Positions 1,945 to 7,969 of a stretch of 7,969 bases of DNA are shown here, piece by piece (the first letter of the stretch is position 1; each line of letters begins with the position of its first letter). The translations under genes and the position numbers were made by a program. Origin of the DNA: Methanosarcinales archaeon (GTDB lineage Archaea > Halobacteriota > Methanosarcinia > Methanosarcinales > Methanosarcinaceae); NCBI GenBank assembly GCA_012329085.1, contig JAAXQB010000076.1:1-7969 (forward strand), written 5' to 3'. The notes beneath the pieces are model-generated. The model did no database searches. It was given only the letters and a program-made list of their open reading frames with translations, and had not been told where the DNA came from.

Positions 1945-2049
1945 TTACCTAAAAAATTCGTCAAAGAAGAGGGCAAATCCATGCGCAATTAATATAACAA
2001 AAAGCCCTATTAGTCCATAGGTTATTATATTTTTGCCCTTTTTAATTTT
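1945..2049 (-). pseudogene. Remnant of a VirB2-like pilin (second helix and C-terminus only)
   Basis: In a frame +1 to the preceding gene's end, 34 residues starting KIKKGKNIITYGLIGLFVIL and ending FDEFFR then TAA match the second half of a pilin domain: a basic cytoplasmic loop followed by a hydrophobic helix. The three intact array genes have the same pattern at the same place (for example KRVKKGVKSITYALLGL in the 5732-3333 product and KFKKGKIII in the 7211-5763 product). The signal peptide, first helix and the GD motif are absent. The tail is short, as in ordinary stand-alone pilins, and there is no Cys after the helix. The upstream part of this frame is the antisense-free shadow of the GWAW gene. 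I read it as debris of another array member left by recombination; an alternative is a C-terminal membrane anchor reached by a +1 frameshift from the gene before it. Confidence 0.55.
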
Positions 2050-3298
2050 AATGACCAAAATGAATCCAGCCGATAGAAGTCGAATATGCCCAACCACGAA
2101 TTGTGCCATTAGCAACATCAACTGTTGCTGGATGATAAGGATAGTCAGGGTATGGTCCAAGTGCATCAAAGCTAATCCATCCGATCACATCTGACCATGC
2201 CCAACCACTTAAAATATAATAAGTGAGATCAGCGGTTACCCGATAATCAACTGTAGCACATGTGCCCATATTGTCGCAACTAAGACTAATCCATCCGATG
2301 GCTGGCGACCATGCCCAACCACTTAAATCTCCGGTTAAGCCATCAATAGCAACTTGATAATCAGCTATAGAACATGTGCCCATATTATGGCAACTAAGAC
2401 TAATCCATCCGATCACATCTGACCATGCCCAACCAGTAAGTGCCCTCCCCACACTAACTGTAGCGCTTCCCGGACTATAATTAGAATAGATAGCCCAAAC
2501 CAAGGTGCCACCAAAATTATTTGCTGTAAATTTGCCATATGCATCTATTGTTCCAATTGAGGAATTGTCAACAGTCCAAATTGCCCCTGGAAGAGCACCT
2601 GTAGCTGAATGTGCTGTAAAAGTTTGGGTTCCACCAATTAAAAGAGATGGTGAAGAGGGAACAACTGCTATTGTCCCGACTGCTGGAGAAATGACATTTG
2701 CGATAGCAATTCCAGAAACGGCTGGATTTAGAAGACTAGTCGCAGTAACAGTAACAACACCTGTTGTAGTTCCTGCGGTGAATTGTCCCCCCGAAGATAT
2801 TGTGCCAATTGCTGGATTGCTTGTTGTCCAAATAATGGGACCTAAAGAAGAACCTGTCGGGTGAGGAGTGGCAAGAAATGTCTGTTGTCCTCCAATAACT
2901 ATATCTACTGGATTAGGATTAACAGTTATAGCAGATAATGTTGGGGTAACTATAAAGGGGGTTGGAATAGCCCCTGGAGCCTTACAAACACCAGTAAAAG
3001 CAACAGCAATAACTATTATAAAAAAACCCAAAATAGCATAAATAGCCTTATTTTTTCCCTTGGCAATAATTTCATTGTCACCCAAGCCGGTCATTATATA
3101 AAGGGCTCCAACCAATATTATAAATATAGTAATGGGAACGGCAAAAGACCAAAGAAAACAGACTAAGCTTAAAATTAGCCCTTTAATGGTATCGGCTCTA
3201 ATGGGATTATCAATGGTGGCGAAAAGGGATTGTGTTGAAAATAAAAAAAAGAGTAATGAGAAAAAGGTGATTTGTTTTAGGTTTTTAATTTTGGTCAT
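2048..3298 (-). CDS. Pilin-domain surface protein with Big_2 Ig-like domains and GWAW repeats
   Basis: 416-residue predicted secreted/membrane protein. Residues 8-27 are a signal peptide with an AxA-like cleavage site (LFA-T). Residues 28-105 form a VirB2/TrbC-like T4SS pilin domain: NPIRAD motif, helix about 39-70, basic loop (AKGKNK, 79-84), helix about 85-103, then Cys105. Two Big_2-type Ig-like domains follow (about 120-202 and 205-283), with the typical IGGxQTF and IGTI...GxFTA patterns. The C-terminal part (289-416) holds four GWAWS...IGWIS repeats, two of them followed by a CxNMGTC loop. The GWAW repeat is frequent in Patescibacteria surface proteins, function unknown. ATG at 3298 gives the complete signal peptide; the leader is A/T-rich with no Shine-Dalgarno. 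It is the last intact gene of the array, 34 bp after its neighbour. Membrane-anchored or pilus-displayed adhesin is inferred. Confidence 0.8.
   Translation of the reverse strand: MTKIKNLKQITFFSLLFFLFSTQSLFATIDNPIRADTIKGLILSLVCFLWSFAVPITIFIILVGALYIMTGLGDNEIIAKGKNKAIYAILGFFIIVIAVAFTGVCKAPGAIPTPFIVTPTLSAITVNPNPVDIVIGGQQTFLATPHPTGSSLGPIIWTTSNPAIGTISSGGQFTAGTTTGVVTVTATSLLNPAVSGIAIANVISPAVGTIAVVPSSPSLLIGGTQTFTAHSATGALPGAIWTVDNSSIGTIDAYGKFTANNFGGTLVWAIYSNYSPGSATVSVGRALTGWAWSDVIGWISLSCHNMGTCSIADYQVAIDGLTGDLSGWAWSPAIGWISLSCDNMGTCATVDYRVTADLTYYILSGWAWSDVIGWISFDALGPYPDYPYHPATVDVANGTIRGWAYSTSIGWIHFGH
2051..2434 (-). repeat. Four tandem copies of a ~114 bp GWAW-repeat unit
   Basis: The units start with GWAWS or GWAYS at residues 289, 327, 365 and 402 of the encoded protein, spaced 38, 38 and 37 residues. 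Conservation is strong in the DNA too: a 36-base stretch is identical at 2172-2207 and 2400-2435, exactly 228 bases (two periods) apart. The CATGTGCCCATATT stretch recurs 114 bases apart near 2259 and 2373. Such near-identity points to recent duplication or gene conversion and offers room for copy-number change. Confidence 0.85.
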
Positions 3299-3332
3299 TA
3301 ATATTTATTTTAAATTTATAATTTTTTAGTTT

Positions 3333-5732
3333 TTAGGGGGAGGACCAGCAAGAGCAACGAAATCTGAATTCGCGGTCACTTGGGTCGCTGTCCCAATTGT
3401 TGCCTCTATAAAATCTGTCCCCTAAACACATAGTGCAGTCGGTGTCGGAGGTCGGAAAACGCCACCTTGCTTGTTGTGCCATACCATATCCATTCCCCGC
3501 TGCTCTACAAGCATTTAAACACCTACTATGAGAAGCAGGAGTAAGAGGGGGGTGCCCCGATGTCCTTGCTACAGCATCATCAGTTAAAAAGGAGAAAGTT
3601 CTTGTTGTCCCATCAACCTGGGCTTGGCATGACAGAAGATGTTGAGTTTCAATGGGCGGAAGAGCAAAATTTTTTGATGTTGACCCGCCTGGACCCGTGC
3701 AAGTTATTGTAAGGGGGTCTTGGGCGGTGGCTGTAGCTGACCCAAATGTTGGCAAGAAGAGGTTTCCAATTCGACAATAGTGAGAATCAAAAGAGTGCCA
3801 ACTTACGCTTATATTCATTCCTGCCCCTAAGCTGGTAAAGGTCTGATTGGGAAAATCAGGAAGGCGATCAAATGCAAGGTTTTTTATTGTTGGGGGGGGA
3901 AAGATAACTGTTATTATTATTTTATCATAAATAGCTGGGTCATCAATACTTGTAGCAATTATCTCAACAGTTCCTAAAACAAGAGCCGTAAATTCACCGG
4001 TTACTGGGTCTATTGAACCACTTCCACTAAGAGGATTGACATCCCAAGCTATATTCCCCAAAATCGCACCAACTGGAGAAATGGACAAGTCAAATATCTC
4101 CTTTTTTCCTCTTCCGATTTCTAGGGTTATTGGGTCAATTGTCGTTGGAGTAATAGTAATTCCAGTAAGGGGCGGATATATAACAGTAACAACTGTTGTG
4201 CCAACAATTCCCGAAGCCACTTCGGTGACAGTTACTTTAACAGTGCCTATGCTATGTGCCGTAAATTTACCAGCTGCATCTATTGTGCCAACACTCGGAG
4301 TGTCTGTTGTCCAATTTAATGTCCCAATGGGCGTGGTAGTTGGAATAAATGAAGCGCTAAATGTTTGCTGTTCTCCAATAATAACATTCGGGAAAGGAGG
4401 GGATACAAGCAAGCCTGTTGCAACTGGAGTAATTGTTACCGTTATTTTTTTATAAATAGTTGGATCAATATTACTTGTTGCAGTTACAACGAGAGTACCA
4501 GAGGTATGTCCTGTAATTTCACCAGTTATTGGATTTATTGTCCCAATTGTTGGATCATCAACAGACCAAATTATTCCTCCCGAAACTGGACCCATAACAG
4601 CAGTAAGTGTTTGCGTGGTACCTATTATAACACTATTGATATTAGATGTAATTGCTACCCACGGTGCTGGCGCTTTGCAAAAACAATAAAGGGGGCGTTG
4701 AACCGAACAATCGCTGTGGGTATTATGAAACCAGAGATGATTTGTTTGAATAGCATCTCCTATAAATCCCTGGTCAACAACAGCCGACGAAGTTCCCCCC
4801 GCACAATTGACACTTAAAGTACCAGAGTAATGAGAAAAAGTCCAAGGGCTAACAGCTGTTCCGACAGAATTAGAAACTGCTCCCACCCATAAAGAATTAA
4901 AGTCTAAAGCAATTTGAGGTCGCCCAAGTTGGCTGGCAGAATACCAAGCCAAATTTAAGTTGGTAGTAAGAATATCTTTGGCTTGGTCTGTTGAAGAAAT
5001 TGATAACAATGCGTTCTCTGTTCCAACGATACAATCGCTAGGTCTATTCGCATCCTGTTTGCATAAAGAAATTGCACCACTTCGACCACCACAATGACCA
5101 ATATGCCCATCTGTTTTTGCATTGCTTGTCCAAATAAGATAGTGGGGGGGAGAAGGAACCACCGTTATAAGTGCTATAGCATAATTGCGAGCATCTGCCT
5201 CGCTTCTAGCAATTATAGTGATATTTCCCGTGCTAAGGGCAATAAAGTTGCCATATGTATCTATTGTGCCTATTGATGGATCGCTTGTTGACCAAAAAAC
5301 ATTTTGATTGGCAGTGGCGGGAGTAATTATAGCGCTAAATGTTTCTGTGCCCCCTATATTAATTACTGCCGTATTGGGACTAACCGCCATTGTTTGGGGA
5401 GGGAGGGCAACGGGGGGAAGTTCTAAACAATTGCCATGAAAGCCAACCATTGTAATTATAAGCCCCAAAAGGGCATAGGTTATTGATTTAACCCCTTTTT
5501 TAACTCTTTTTGGATCTCCAGCACTGGTCATTATAAAAAAGGCACCAACCAAAATTACAAGAATGGCAATAACCGCTGAAAAGCTCCAAAAAATACAGAC
5601 AAAAGCATCTATTAGAGTTGCAAAATCATAAGCTCTAAAAGGGTTTCTAATTCTAGCAAATATTATGGTTGTTGGAAACAAAAATAGCAGAAAAAGAGAA
5701 TAAAACAGATATTTTATATTATCTAAAGACAT
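3333..5732 (-). CDS. Giant pilin-domain adhesin: Big_2 domains, DUF1554-like lectin module, Cys-rich tip
   Basis: 799-residue multi-domain surface protein. Signal peptide residues 7-26 (IFA-R); VirB2-like pilin domain 27-102 with NPFRAYD, helix about 38-70, basic loop PKRVKKGVK (74-82), helix about 84-99 and Cys102. A first Big_2 Ig-like domain spans about 114-193. A DUF1554/endostatin-like (C-type-lectin-type) module follows at about 197-353, ending CSVQRPLYCFC. Three more Big_2 domains cover about 356-436, 437-520 and 521-612. An Ig-like domain with two Cys (613-694) resembles those of the upstream gene. The last 100 residues (697-799) hold seven Cys, end FRCSCW, and I do not recognise them. 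Two runs of C encode Pro-rich joints (residues 195-196 and 612-614). No catalytic motif or sortase signal is seen. Start at ATG 5732 is set by the signal peptide; spacing is 30 bp from the gene before. A pilus-tip or cell-surface adhesin is inferred, and the ligand is unknown. Confidence 0.8.
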   Translation of the reverse strand: MSLDNIKYLFYSLFLLFLFPTTIIFARIRNPFRAYDFATLIDAFVCIFWSFSAVIAILVILVGAFFIMTSAGDPKRVKKGVKSITYALLGLIITMVGFHGNCLELPPVALPPQTMAVSPNTAVINIGGTETFSAIITPATANQNVFWSTSDPSIGTIDTYGNFIALSTGNITIIARSEADARNYAIALITVVPSPPHYLIWTSNAKTDGHIGHCGGRSGAISLCKQDANRPSDCIVGTENALLSISSTDQAKDILTTNLNLAWYSASQLGRPQIALDFNSLWVGAVSNSVGTAVSPWTFSHYSGTLSVNCAGGTSSAVVDQGFIGDAIQTNHLWFHNTHSDCSVQRPLYCFCKAPAPWVAITSNINSVIIGTTQTLTAVMGPVSGGIIWSVDDPTIGTINPITGEITGHTSGTLVVTATSNIDPTIYKKITVTITPVATGLLVSPPFPNVIIGEQQTFSASFIPTTTPIGTLNWTTDTPSVGTIDAAGKFTAHSIGTVKVTVTEVASGIVGTTVVTVIYPPLTGITITPTTIDPITLEIGRGKKEIFDLSISPVGAILGNIAWDVNPLSGSGSIDPVTGEFTALVLGTVEIIATSIDDPAIYDKIIITVIFPPPTIKNLAFDRLPDFPNQTFTSLGAGMNISVSWHSFDSHYCRIGNLFLPTFGSATATAQDPLTITCTGPGGSTSKNFALPPIETQHLLSCQAQVDGTTRTFSFLTDDAVARTSGHPPLTPASHSRCLNACRAAGNGYGMAQQARWRFPTSDTDCTMCLGDRFYRGNNWDSDPSDREFRFRCSCWSSP
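3892..3899 (-). repeat. Run of eight C (coding strand) at a domain joint
   Basis: Eight consecutive C on the coding strand encode part of FPPPT (residues 611-615), the hinge between the last Big_2 domain and the following Ig-like domain. Insertion or loss of one base would remove the C-terminal Ig-like and Cys-rich modules. In this sequence the frame is intact. Confidence 0.8.
5144..5150 (-). repeat. Run of seven C (coding strand) before the lectin-like module
   Basis: Seven consecutive C on the coding strand encode the PP of SPPHY (residues 194-198), exactly where the first Big_2 domain meets the DUF1554-like module. The frame is intact here. It is shorter than the run of ten in the first array gene and so less prone to slippage. 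Confidence 0.75.
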
Positions 5733-5762
5733 AGTCTAAAAAAATAAATAAATTGAAAAAAA

Positions 5763-7211
5763 TTAAAATATTTTTCCGATACAAAGAATTTTAAGAAAAC
5801 TATCACACGACTGATGGCGGCCAACAATGCCATGACGCCCCTTATATAATTGAACAGAGAAGCCATACAGATCTGGTTGAGAAGTTGTCCACTGATAACA
5901 TGTTTCTTCCCAGTCCGTGCTCCTGGGTTTATCACCTAATGCTGCTCCCGTCCAAAAATAATTGATATGGGGAGACATTCCATCTATTGCATCTTTCATT
6001 GAGTTTTGCCATATTCTTCTAAGAAATAGATCACGATTAAAGGCAATAAGATGGGAGTCAAAATTAGTTGTGCCATCAGGCCAAAATCCCCAAACTTTTG
6101 CATTAGGATCTAAATTTATTTGGTTCCAGATATTAGCAATATACCAATCACTGCCACCTGCTCGAGAATATAATCCAGCCACTCTCTCCCCCCAACCTAG
6201 CGTTGAGCCAACATCAAATTTATCAAAAATAATATGATCATATTTTGATCTTTGAGCTTCAGCTCGGCAAGCACCAATTAATGCAAAGTCTGGAGGATGA
6301 AAATAATCAACCATATGTCCTTTATCTTCACCCGGTCCTTGATCTAAGACAAAAATCACTAAATCACCAGAAGACGGAGTAAGAGTTGCCAAAGGAATAT
6401 CTACTGTTACTGTCACACTGGCTGTTACCGTCCCGGCTGACTCAATACATTCTATCTCGTATATTGTTGTTGCCGAAGGAGTAACTTGATCAACACCATC
6501 TGCCCTACCCCCAGTGACAAAACCAGGACCAGCAATGGCAGTGCAAGAGGTAGCATTTGGGAAATTCCATTTTAGAGTTGTGCTCTCTCCTAAAGTGATC
6601 GTATCTGGATCCGCTACTAATACATTAGTTGGAATTGGCACGATTACTTGAACTACTGCAGTAATAAATTTTTGTCCTTCGGGACCAATACACTTTAAGG
6701 TATAGGTTGTTGAATTTCTTGGATTTACTGAAATGCTACCGTCAGTTCTCCCCCCAGTATAAAACCCAGGACTAAAGGCAGTGCAAGCAGTAGTATTTTC
6801 TGAAGTCCATTTAAGTGTTGTTGTCATGCCTTGTTGAATAGTTGTAGGAACAGCCGTTAAGGTAATTGATATGTCCTCATCGGGAGGAACAGTACAAATA
6901 CCACTCAACCCGATTGTTATCCCAACAATAAGAACTCCTAAAAGAGAGAGAAAAATTATTATTTTCCCCTTTTTAAATTTTTCAGGATCTCCAATACTAG
7001 TCATTATAAAAAAAGCACCAACCAGAATTAAAATAACTGCTACTGGAATTGTGAAAGTCCAAAAAAAACAGAGAATCGAAAATACCAGCTCCATAAATCT
7101 ATCAGTTTTAATGGGATCTATAATCTCAGCAAAAACAATTTTACCCGAAAATAAAAACAAAAATAAGAATGATAATAAAAAGGGTAATATTTTTTTCTTT
7201 TTTAATCTCAT
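5763..7211 (-). CDS. Pilin-domain adhesin with duplicated Ig-like domains and C-terminal lectin-like module
   Basis: 482-residue predicted surface protein. Signal peptide residues 2-28 with a strongly basic start (MRLKKKK) and VFA-E cleavage site. VirB2-like pilin domain 29-106: DPIKTD, helix about 39-70, GDPEKFKKGK cytoplasmic loop, helix about 84-103, Cys106. Two Ig-like domains (about 115-192 and 194-271) are internal duplicates sharing STTLKW or TTTLKW, a CTA motif, PGF-TGGR-DG and a second Cys; the GGR motifs are 81 residues apart. The C-terminal 200 residues (284-482) look like a DUF1554/endostatin-like module: LVIFVLDQG start, GACRAEAQ, NYFWTGAALG, CYQWTT and a final CDSFLKILCIG. That call rests on motif order, not a search. 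ATG 7211 gives the complete signal peptide; the 28 bases before it are only A and T, with no Shine-Dalgarno. It is 28 bp behind the partial first gene and 30 bp ahead of the next. Adhesion is inferred from the modules. Confidence 0.8.
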   Translation of the reverse strand: MRLKKKKILPFLLSFLFLFLFSGKIVFAEIIDPIKTDRFMELVFSILCFFWTFTIPVAVILILVGAFFIMTSIGDPEKFKKGKIIIFLSLLGVLIVGITIGLSGICTVPPDEDISITLTAVPTTIQQGMTTTLKWTSENTTACTAFSPGFYTGGRTDGSISVNPRNSTTYTLKCIGPEGQKFITAVVQVIVPIPTNVLVADPDTITLGESTTLKWNFPNATSCTAIAGPGFVTGGRADGVDQVTPSATTIYEIECIESAGTVTASVTVTVDIPLATLTPSSGDLVIFVLDQGPGEDKGHMVDYFHPPDFALIGACRAEAQRSKYDHIIFDKFDVGSTLGWGERVAGLYSRAGGSDWYIANIWNQINLDPNAKVWGFWPDGTTNFDSHLIAFNRDLFLRRIWQNSMKDAIDGMSPHINYFWTGAALGDKPRSTDWEETCYQWTTSQPDLYGFSVQLYKGRHGIVGRHQSCDSFLKILCIGKIF

Positions 7212-7239
7212 TTTTATAAAAATTTTAATTTAATTTTTT

Positions 7240-7587
7240 TTATTGCTGAAATTTGATAATACGCAAGGTAATGGGTATAGTTATTTGTTGATTCCCTGCT
7301 GTGATTGTAACACTTTCATAATATTTACCAGGGGGTATTACGGGGGGATTAAGGGTATTTCCTGAGAGCCCCTGAACAGTAACTGTTATAGATTGTCCTG
7401 GACTCAAAGATCCTTGCAATGGATATGTCCTTATAAATGTTACAGAACTGCTACTATCCCAAGCTAATTGTTGGTTAGAAAAGTTGGTTATTATTATGGT
7501 GGCAGGGGTCGTCCAGAGCACATTACTCTGCCAAAACTGGTCGTTGACCCATATCATAAAATCGGAGTTATTTACATGTATCAGAAG
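7240..7587 (-). CDS. 3' half of frameshifted surface gene: Ig-like domain
   Basis: About 115 residues that continue the lectin-like part of the same gene but in another frame. They start LLIHVNNSDFMIW right after the ten-C run and end TIPITLRIIKFQQ then TAA. The region from SLSPGQSITVTVQG to ITIPITL has the strand pattern of a BACON/PapD-like Ig-fold domain. No start codon with a credible ribosome site opens this half: the frame can be followed upstream to an ATG at 7797, but there it only shadows the lectin module, so it is not an independent gene. With nine C instead of ten, the two halves would join as one reading frame through a Pro linker. I read it as the C-terminal domain of a phase-variable, frameshifted or mis-sequenced gene. 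Confidence 0.65.
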   Translation of the reverse strand, partial: LLIHVNNSDFMIWVNDQFWQSNVLWTTPATIIITNFSNQQLAWDSSSSVTFIRTYPLQGSLSPGQSITVTVQGLSGNTLNPPVIPPGKYYESVTITAGNQQITIPITLRIIKFQQ

Positions 7588-7969
7588 GGGGGGGGGAGGT
7601 GCTACCGCAAGCACATAATAGGGGCAAATCAAAAGGAGGTGCAATACAATTGGTTGGTGTCCATGAGCCAGCCCATGGGCCCCCGAGCCATCTTTTGCCT
7701 GTGGTATTTGTGATGCCAGATATACCTCCACTAGGGTCGGGAAAGGCTTCAGTCCAACCACCGCAAGTATAGGGAGCCACACTTCCATCAGAACCATCTG
7801 TTCCCGTCCAATGGTTAGTACCTAAACCCAGCAAGCCACTATCAAAACCACCGTCCATCGGGCTATTGATCACACTTCCATCAAGAAGGTCTGCCCAATT
7901 GTTTGCTGCCAAAATACCAGGATGAGTATAATCTCTAAAAAACCAGGGAGCAAACCTATTGTTCACATA
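7568..7969 (-). CDS. 5' half of frameshifted surface gene: DUF1554-like lectin module (runs off the window)
   Basis: The frame is open to the right edge; a GTG at 7966 is not a convincing start because the module is already under way. ANNWADLLDGSVINSPMD, HWTGTDGSDGS, CGGWTE and the end CIAPPFDLPLLCACG match the DUF1554 (Leptospira endostatin-like, C-type-lectin-type fold) pattern well, the best such match in the window. After the module the frame enters a Pro run encoded by ten C and stops at SPPPSDTCK, so as sequenced the protein lacks its following Ig-like domain (encoded just downstream in another frame). By analogy with the three genes after it, the missing N-terminus probably carries a signal peptide and pilin domain, but that part is outside the window. 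Role: extracellular binding module, ligand unknown. Confidence 0.7.
   Translation of the reverse strand, partial: YVNNRFAPWFFRDYTHPGILAANNWADLLDGSVINSPMDGGFDSGLLGLGTNHWTGTDGSDGSVAPYTCGGWTEAFPDPSGGISGITNTTGKRWLGGPWAGSWTPTNCIAPPFDLPLLCACGSTSPPPSDTCK
7587..7596 (-). repeat. Run of ten C (coding strand) at a frameshift: candidate contingency tract
   Basis: Ten consecutive C on the coding strand sit exactly where the lectin-like reading frame leaves the frame of the following Ig-like domain. Nine (or twelve) C would fuse the two; ten ends the protein nine codons later. Runs of this length are known to slip in replication in other bacteria (poly-G/C contingency loci of Neisseria and Campylobacter) and are also frequent sequencing-error sites. 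Confidence 0.8.

Follow-up and report, generated by a model that had tools for sequence, protein, structure and literature searches.

A tandem array of pilin genes with different heads as an instance of a pattern widespread in Patescibacteria

Results and Discussion

VirB2 proteins are small and stand-alone, and a locus in which three adjacent genes each join a VirB2-type pilin base to a large additional part (hereafter, a head) raises the question of what such proteins do. The locus lies in a stretch of 7,969 nucleotides (positions 1 to 7,969 of contig JAAXQB010000076.1, assembly GCA_012329085.1, filed as Methanosarcinales archaeon), which was analysed as a whole and is called the window below. 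The answer that we consider reasonably probable is that the array encodes surface proteins in which a VirB2-type pilin hairpin displays the heads, the probable use being contact with other cells. The array is also an instance of a pattern of pilin-head fusions that is widespread in Patescibacteria and for which no description was found in the open-access literature; this wider pattern of fusions in the phylum is a stronger finding than the array itself.

Three adjacent genes with one pilin base

Genes C, B and A are complete and adjacent, lie on the minus strand in the order C, B, A along transcription, and are separated by gaps of 30 and 34 nucleotides. Gene C (5763-7211) encodes 482 residues, comprising a pilin base (residues 1-110; nucleotides 6882-7211), two immunoglobulin-like (Ig) domains (residues 115-271) and an unassigned end of 200 residues. 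Gene B (3333-5732; 799 residues) starts with a pilin base (residues 1-104; nucleotides 5421-5732), followed by Big_2, a middle domain of 170 residues, further Big_2 repeats and a Cys-rich end. Gene A (2048-3298; 416 residues) joins its base (residues 1-112; nucleotides 2963-3298) to two Big_2 domains and four GWAW-type repeats. Each base, of about 105 residues, consists of a signal-peptide-like stretch and two hydrophobic helices; pairwise identity between the bases is 40-45% (BLASTP E values of 5e-21 to 3e-24), and their alignment contains 30 invariant columns, including ILVGA and GD. A tree of 374 pilin domains, built without duplicates, weak matches and X-containing sequences, placed the bases of A, B and C in one clade of mutual closest relatives (support 0.925) and left a truncated pilin next to gene A unplaced (support 0.02). 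Judged from these sequences, local duplication of the base, with different heads, produced the three genes. The claim of an earlier sequence-only reading that three complete neighbouring genes carry one N-terminal unit and different heads is thereby borne out by the coordinates and the identity of the bases.

Since the Pfam match exceeded its cut-off for B alone, with the base of A just reaching it and C unmatched, a bridging profile was built from 43 pilin domains of other Patescibacteria, window sequences excluded; these were drawn from 237 less-similar pilins, with sequences containing X dropped and one further sequence left out by hand. The profile matched the bases of B (E = 1.2e-16), C (E = 9.3e-15) and A (E = 2.1e-11), as well as the truncated pilin at 1945-~2045 (E = 2.4e-5); at E ≤ 10 it matched none of 903 shuffled or reversed sequences and none of 522 Fructobacillus open reading frames (ORFs). 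Alignment A2 joins A, B and C to the 43 profile pilins; of its 46 sequences, 45 matched PF18895, 44 matched NF045849 and 22 matched TrbC/VirB2 PF04956 at E ≤ 0.01. Against PF18895 (T4SS_pilin; curated cut-off 26.6 bits) B scored 28.0 bits as a full protein and 34.1 bits as the base alone, and A scored 22.4 bits in full and 26.6 bits, equal to the printed cut-off, as the base alone; C gave no match at E ≤ 1. PF04956 gave no match at E ≤ 1 for the full proteins A, B and C or for the bases of A and C, and none at E ≤ 0.01 for the base of B. Scores against NF045849 (Mbov_0395 pilin-like conjugal transfer protein; cut-off 40 bits) were below the cut-off for B (29.8 bits in full, 33.9 bits for the base) and for full-length C (15.0 bits, E = 0.014), and full-length A gave no match. 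No credible match of the pilin base to a solved structure was found by sequence. Membership of the type IV secretion system (T4SS) pilin family is supported by the bridging profile for all three bases; direct Pfam support is limited to B and to A, whose base just reaches the cut-off. The sequence-only reading had proposed a VirB2-like base and had named the lack of any profile match as the finding that would speak against it; such matches were found.

The layout of PF18895-type pilins, that is a signal peptide, two hydrophobic helices and a short positive loop, recurs in the window bases, the signal peptides of A, B and C being called from hydropathy and sequence. AlphaFold models of the hairpin cover B and C, with long helices at residues 39-70 and 76-103 in C (ten-residue mean predicted local distance difference test [pLDDT] of 77-97 up to residue 100) and at 37-68 and 74-96 in B (82-95 over residues 41-90); the signal helix is of low confidence in both. 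The loop between the helices has a net charge of +1 in A, +4 in B and +2 in C and, under the positive-inside rule, both ends of the base would therefore lie outside. The charge pattern thus agrees with the earlier proposal that the C-terminus faces outwards. In relatives, heads are attached at the N-terminal or the C-terminal side of the pilin and, TrbL_4 apart, the head types that score above cut-off there are extracytoplasmic (see below), which likewise argues that both ends would be outside.

The head of A matched Big_2 (PF02368; cut-off 22.8 bits) over two stretches (E = 8e-12, 45.4 bits), and the four GWAW-type repeats that follow were found in no other pilin ORF of the loci fetched from related genomes. 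The head of B matched Big_2 over three stretches (E = 8e-30, 103 bits) and also has the middle domain, of about 170 residues, and the Cys-rich end. Big_2 gave no match over the cut-off in C, in which the two Ig domains were modelled with a pLDDT of about 90. Foldseek matches to the C model (best 50 rows) were mostly chains with two Ig domains, the best being 1fnl (E = 3e-7); these rows bear on the Ig domains, the hairpin lying outside that comparison, and the low TM-score (0.37 by target) and root-mean-square deviation of 11 indicate that the domains match and their arrangement does not. Residues 283-482 of C, and 178-355 and 601-799 of B, had a pLDDT under 50, hence no fold is claimed for them. 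The heads thus differ: that of C matched neither A nor B (E of 0.02 or worse), and those of A and B are related via Big_2 (41% identity over 147 residues).

Heads had also been described as lectin-like, and this call is weak. The middle domain of B gave a sub-threshold match to DUF1554 (PF07588; E = 0.027, 14.7 of 27.5 bits), and no DUF1554 match was found in C or in the partial gene D described below. Comparison of head pairs with 500 shuffles placed B-C at chance (196 of 500 shuffles reached the score), with 13 of 500 for C-D and 1 of 500 for B-D (z = 4.1); the register of the B-D alignment fails to pair the expected Cys/Trp pattern. A lectin motif shared by B, C and D was rejected on these shuffling results and the mismatched B-D register. 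A relation between the B and D sequences is possible.

Head-bearing pilins across Patescibacteria

The window, which holds no marker genes, most likely derives from a member of Patescibacteria, judged from its pilins and from its pyrophosphatase, which is closest to Patescibacteria (49% identity to genome G001); this is in keeping with the Candidate Phyla Radiation type of cell suggested earlier. PF18895 was found in 371 of 379 genomes of the phylum of G001 (366 over the cut-off), often in many copies per genome, and in one of 14 control genomes, that of Haloferax volcanii. Profile A1, based on the window, matched 353 of the 379. Frames among the best-scoring matches listed were mostly 90-250 residues long, and some reached 3,577 residues.

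In a survey of 24 genomes, a broad profile gave 148 pilin matches, and the loci fetched held 116 distinct pilin ORFs, ORFs of identical sequence having been dropped before counting. The genomes were chosen non-randomly: 12 were nearest by pyrophosphatase and 12 were hand-picked, mostly among the top matches to profile A1. Additional sequence was registered as a C-terminal head where at least 100 residues with at most one hydrophobic segment followed the pilin, and as an N-terminal head where a domain lay between signal and pilin (simple hydropathy rule). C-terminal heads were present in 26 of the 116 ORFs (12 genomes) and N-terminal heads in a further 22 (13 genomes), so defined. Heads of either kind occurred in 20 of the 24 genomes; among the 12 chosen by pyrophosphatase, 10 had heads of either kind and 3 had C-terminal heads. 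The head-bearing share of 48/116 is biased upward, loci with long frames having been fetched first; as a share of all 148 matches, 48 is about a third. The sequence-only reading had advised looking in related genomes for arrays with a constant pilin part and variable C-termini; pilins with variable extra parts were found in many genomes of this non-random set.

Heads of 27 fused relatives, a subset of those found, were scanned with Pfam. Matches over the cut-off comprised CHAP, SLT, SLT_3, M15 peptidase and C39 peptidase, together with Big_2, Big_5, Big_7, TIG, PKD, CARDB and TrbL_4 (a VirB6 relative); NlpC/P60 and glucosaminidase were matched below it. Tails of Ig-type repeats in relatives extended to about 3,400 residues. 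Some pilin-head architectures recurred across genomes as sets. At four loci (L054, L055, L056 and L058) a fused pilin of 640-760 residues was followed by a far longer one (1,097 to 3,539 residues, some cut by contig or locus ends), and at four others (L113, L114, L118 and L119) two shorter multi-helix pilins preceded one of 1,500-1,660 residues; the long pilin of L113, the only one scanned of its set, carries PKD repeats. Fused pilins of 925 and 550 residues were adjacent at L145, and near-tandem arrangements, in which some members are separated by gaps or by other genes, were seen at L144 (424, 435 and 416 residues), L103, L148 and L150.

Other arrangements of the pilin domain were also encountered. 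At L138, L134, L137 and L136 (genomes G210, G089, G061 and G145, respectively) the pilin sits at the C-terminus of larger exported proteins, a mirror of the window architecture, and the part ahead of the pilin in L138 is partly Cys-rich. Two pilin hairpins per polypeptide were found by profile at L160:945-1679 and L109:9953-10783, and three in one chain, judged by eye, at L113:7439-8686. In L063:8631-9923 and L133:8050-9339 the pilin is followed by six and four hydrophobic segments, respectively, and L063 matches TrbL_4, placing pilin and VirB6-like parts in one chain. A protein at L103:12279-13559, located between a pilin-CHAP gene and a pilin-glucosaminidase-like gene, combines glutaredoxin, pilin and an NlpC/P60-like domain (just under the cut-off). 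Finally, L146:5901-7409, close to a VirB4-like gene, has heads at both ends of one pilin, with a GDSL-lipase-like domain (below the cut-off) before it and an SLT transglycosylase after it.

Probable surface display and competing explanations

In the proposed mechanism, the array proteins would be exported and their two base helices would settle in the membrane, or else assemble as part of a filament; the positive loop would be on the inner side and both base ends outside. The Ig, Big_2 and other domains would then project from the cell and, most likely, bind a partner cell or surface; head type and lifestyle suggest that this could be adhesion to a host.

Proximity to T4SS genes was assessed with PF19044 (P-loop_TraG family), which stands for VirB4-like genes here without separating VirB4 from coupling proteins and also matched 7 of the 14 control genomes. 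PF19044 ATPases were present in 22 of the 24 survey genomes. Of the 12 genomes with C-terminal heads, four (G063, G105, G300 and G117; loci L145, L151, L153 and L146) had head-bearing pilins at most 5 kb from a PF19044 gene on the same strand. For N-terminal heads, the distance was 5 kb in G145, where both genes share a strand, and 9 kb in G061, where they are on opposite strands.

Several findings weigh against display on a T4SS-type pilin for contact. In the other 8 of the 12 genomes no C-terminal head was within 5 kb of a PF19044 gene, which lay 18-20 kb away (G275 and G350) or on another contig (five genomes) or was not found (G127). A further 10 genomes carry very long or Ig/Big_2-type fusions (those of six genomes were Pfam-scanned: L054, the smaller gene of L055, L057, L058, L060 and L113). 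PF19044 was present in all 10, and none of these fusions was seen within 5 kb of it: in four genomes it lies 170-610 kb off on the contig of the fusion, and in six it is on a different contig, which gives no distance. The window array resembles this orphan kind: VirB4- or VirB6-like genes next door, for which the sequence-only reading had proposed a check, were not found among the eight reading frames scanned in this short contig, nor was an intact plain pilin. Direct Pfam matches of the window bases are weak (A does not rise above the cut-off, C is unmatched, and none of A, B and C matches PF04956), and in several fusions elsewhere the pilin part was likewise under the Pfam cut-off and recognized by the broad profile only (L052, the first gene of L148, L150, L151, L153, L146, L140 and the smaller gene of L055); the scores of L150, L151 and L153 were 24.8, 20.8 and 18.1 bits against the 26.6 bits of PF18895, with profile E values of 6e-13, 2e-12 and 1e-8, respectively. 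The search results contained no close relative of the full array proteins, and no window head could be assigned to a binding family from its sequence. Ig folds, moreover, serve as spacers as often as binders.

Two alternatives overlap with the display of heads on a pilin hairpin and compete with each other over polymerization versus anchoring. It is quite possible, if not what we would expect, that the hairpin only anchors, with no T4SS interaction left, and that these are ordinary anchored surface proteins. The orphan position of the fusions in those 10 genomes, with no VirB4-like gene seen nearby, fits this, as do the window neighbours, a Mn-pyrophosphatase and a sugar-phosphate mutase; furthermore, A, B and C have no LPxTG anchor and therefore need another. 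Against a mere anchor stand the 30 invariant columns among the three bases, which go beyond hydrophobicity, and the failure of shuffled controls of equal composition to score on the profile.

The other alternative, which we regard as rather unlikely, is that these are minor or tip pilins, head-bearing subunits built into a T4SS pilus together with plain pilins and doing a VirB5 or PrgB-type job. Here and below, statements on published work refer to the passages covered of each paper. Membership of the base in the pilin family, the multi-copy pilins of the phylum and the fused pilins beside VirB4-like genes in some relatives are in its favour, and Ca. S. epibionticum is reported to depend on a series of pilins in its T4SS cluster, which is essential (PMC10633639), with PrgB-type adhesins undetected in Patescibacteria (PMC12102498). 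However, a pilus of such kind is unreported in the literature passages covered, VirB4-like genes are absent near the fusions in the window and in the 10 further genomes, and a head of 700 residues (or 3,400) may be too large to pass through a filament or be packed in one. The orphan location and the head sizes place plain membrane display slightly ahead of pilus incorporation or a tip role. A third alternative, that B and C carry contact-dependent wall-acting enzymes, or inactive binding versions of them, as their unassigned heads, is improbable: relatives do carry CHAP, SLT, SLT_3, M15 and, below the cut-off, glucosaminidase or NlpC/P60 domains, and an adhesin role has been proposed for VirB1 homologues that are inactive (PMC12857230), but the Pfam scan gave no hydrolase family match to any window head, and Ig-type repeats make up much of the window heads.

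Other features of the window

Upstream of C, the partial gene D (7568-7969, minus strand, 133 residues) is open at the window end; its N-terminus is beyond the window edge, so a pilin base there, if any, lies outside. D gave no Pfam match. It loses frame near a run of ten C (7587-7596), and an Ig/BACON-like tail on the same strand (7240-7597, start approximate) then continues in another frame to 7240, with sub-threshold matches to Cep192_D6 (26.8 of 35 bits) and BACON_2 (17.0 of 25 bits). The tail likely once formed the end of D and was split by the frame break, which could be slippage, decay or read error. The array contains three C runs of 7-10 nucleotides, the other two (3892-3899 and 5144-5150) being inside B. 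Phase variation via poly-C tracts was considered and rejected, as the evidence for an excess of runs is equivocal (P = 0.10 and 0.09 for the number of runs, P = 0.03 for the longest) and read or assembly error is equally likely.

Downstream of A, the truncated pilin (1945-~2045, minus strand) retains just the loop and the second helix, and its frame overlaps the 3' end of A. The truncated pilin abuts that end as though pilin genes had recombined, a hint that heads may be swapped through pilin recombination. An array of perhaps five members had been envisaged, of which three are proven, one is truncated and one, D, is possible. Beyond the truncated pilin, family matches identified two genes, one for an inorganic pyrophosphatase of the Mn-dependent type (833-1726) and one of the phosphomannomutase (sugar-phosphate mutase) type (2-619). 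Rfam and tRNA scans of the window gave no matches, and the only tandem repeat found, a short one, is not in the array.

Three protein searches (230, the best 7998 scored and 541 candidates) yielded no full-length relatives of A, B or C; they returned only the same proteins, P0001 and P0002, and those with protein C also gave Ig-repeat proteins that lack the end of C. No relatives of the array proteins were found among viral contigs. P0002, 99% identical to protein C, is encoded on a different public contig of 11,815 bases; further upstream parts of the array may lie on that contig.

Relation to known systems and implications

The closest published parallel in Patescibacteria is a set of 441 arrays of 2-11 VirB2-like pilins in 383 assemblies, detected with PF18895 (PMC12102498). 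Those arrays have the same base family as the window genes and are likewise multi-copy and tandem with divergent copies; the passages covered mention neither extra heads nor pilin-head fusions, whereas the window genes carry 300-700 extra residues. The same work reports that no PrgB-type adhesin was detected in Patescibacteria and that most genomes with VirB2 are without VirB1. The passages covered of PMC7739484 and PMC4158269 mention no pilin fusions either. For Ca. S. epibionticum, a predicted series of pilins inside the T4SS cluster was found to be essential (PMC10633639); PMC12857230 gives the same pilin essentiality, describes VirB5 as the tip protein and an inactive VirB1 as a proposed adhesin, and presents the variable VirB2/VirB5 of the Bartonella Trw system as variable contact subunits. 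In Patescibacteria living with methanogens, T4SS pilins, Ig-like folds and thioredoxin-like domains were among the highly expressed unknown genes and were called host-adhesion related (PMC10936435); because of that label, an adhesion role for T4SS-pilin proteins has been suggested before.

Compared with TrbC/VirB2 conjugative pilins (PF04956), the window bases have the signal peptide and two hydrophobic helices in common but no direct match, and the proteins (416, 799 and 482 residues) are not small and stand-alone; VirB4/VirB6 neighbours, lacking among the frames scanned in the short window, are present for some fused relatives. The likeness to PrgB-type adhesins of Gram-positive T4SS lies in a possible role, cell contact for a monoderm T4SS, but the window proteins have no LPxTG-like motif and no PrgB-type Pfam match (E ≤ 1), and the pilin hairpin would be the anchor instead. 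They resemble VirB5 tips and the Bartonella Trw VirB2/VirB5 as candidate variable contact subunits of a T4SS pilus (PMC12857230); in those systems tip and pilin are separate proteins, whereas head and base form one chain in the window.

A broader proposal, put forward tentatively and somewhat doubtful as a whole, is that Patescibacteria may have made the VirB2-type pilin a general display module. A filament or membrane lattice of plain pilins would be decorated with fused adhesins and wall-cutting enzymes at either terminus, replacing VirB5/PrgB and VirB1, and the attached heads would set host range.

Little is known of the means by which episymbiotic Patescibacteria recognize their hosts and attack them. 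Searches for separate adhesins or lytic enzymes would miss adhesin and enzyme domains if these ride on pilins. Pilin fusions offer a way to spot host-contact domains from sequence, and head-bearing pilins beside VirB4-like genes are concrete candidates for host contact in cultivated strains.

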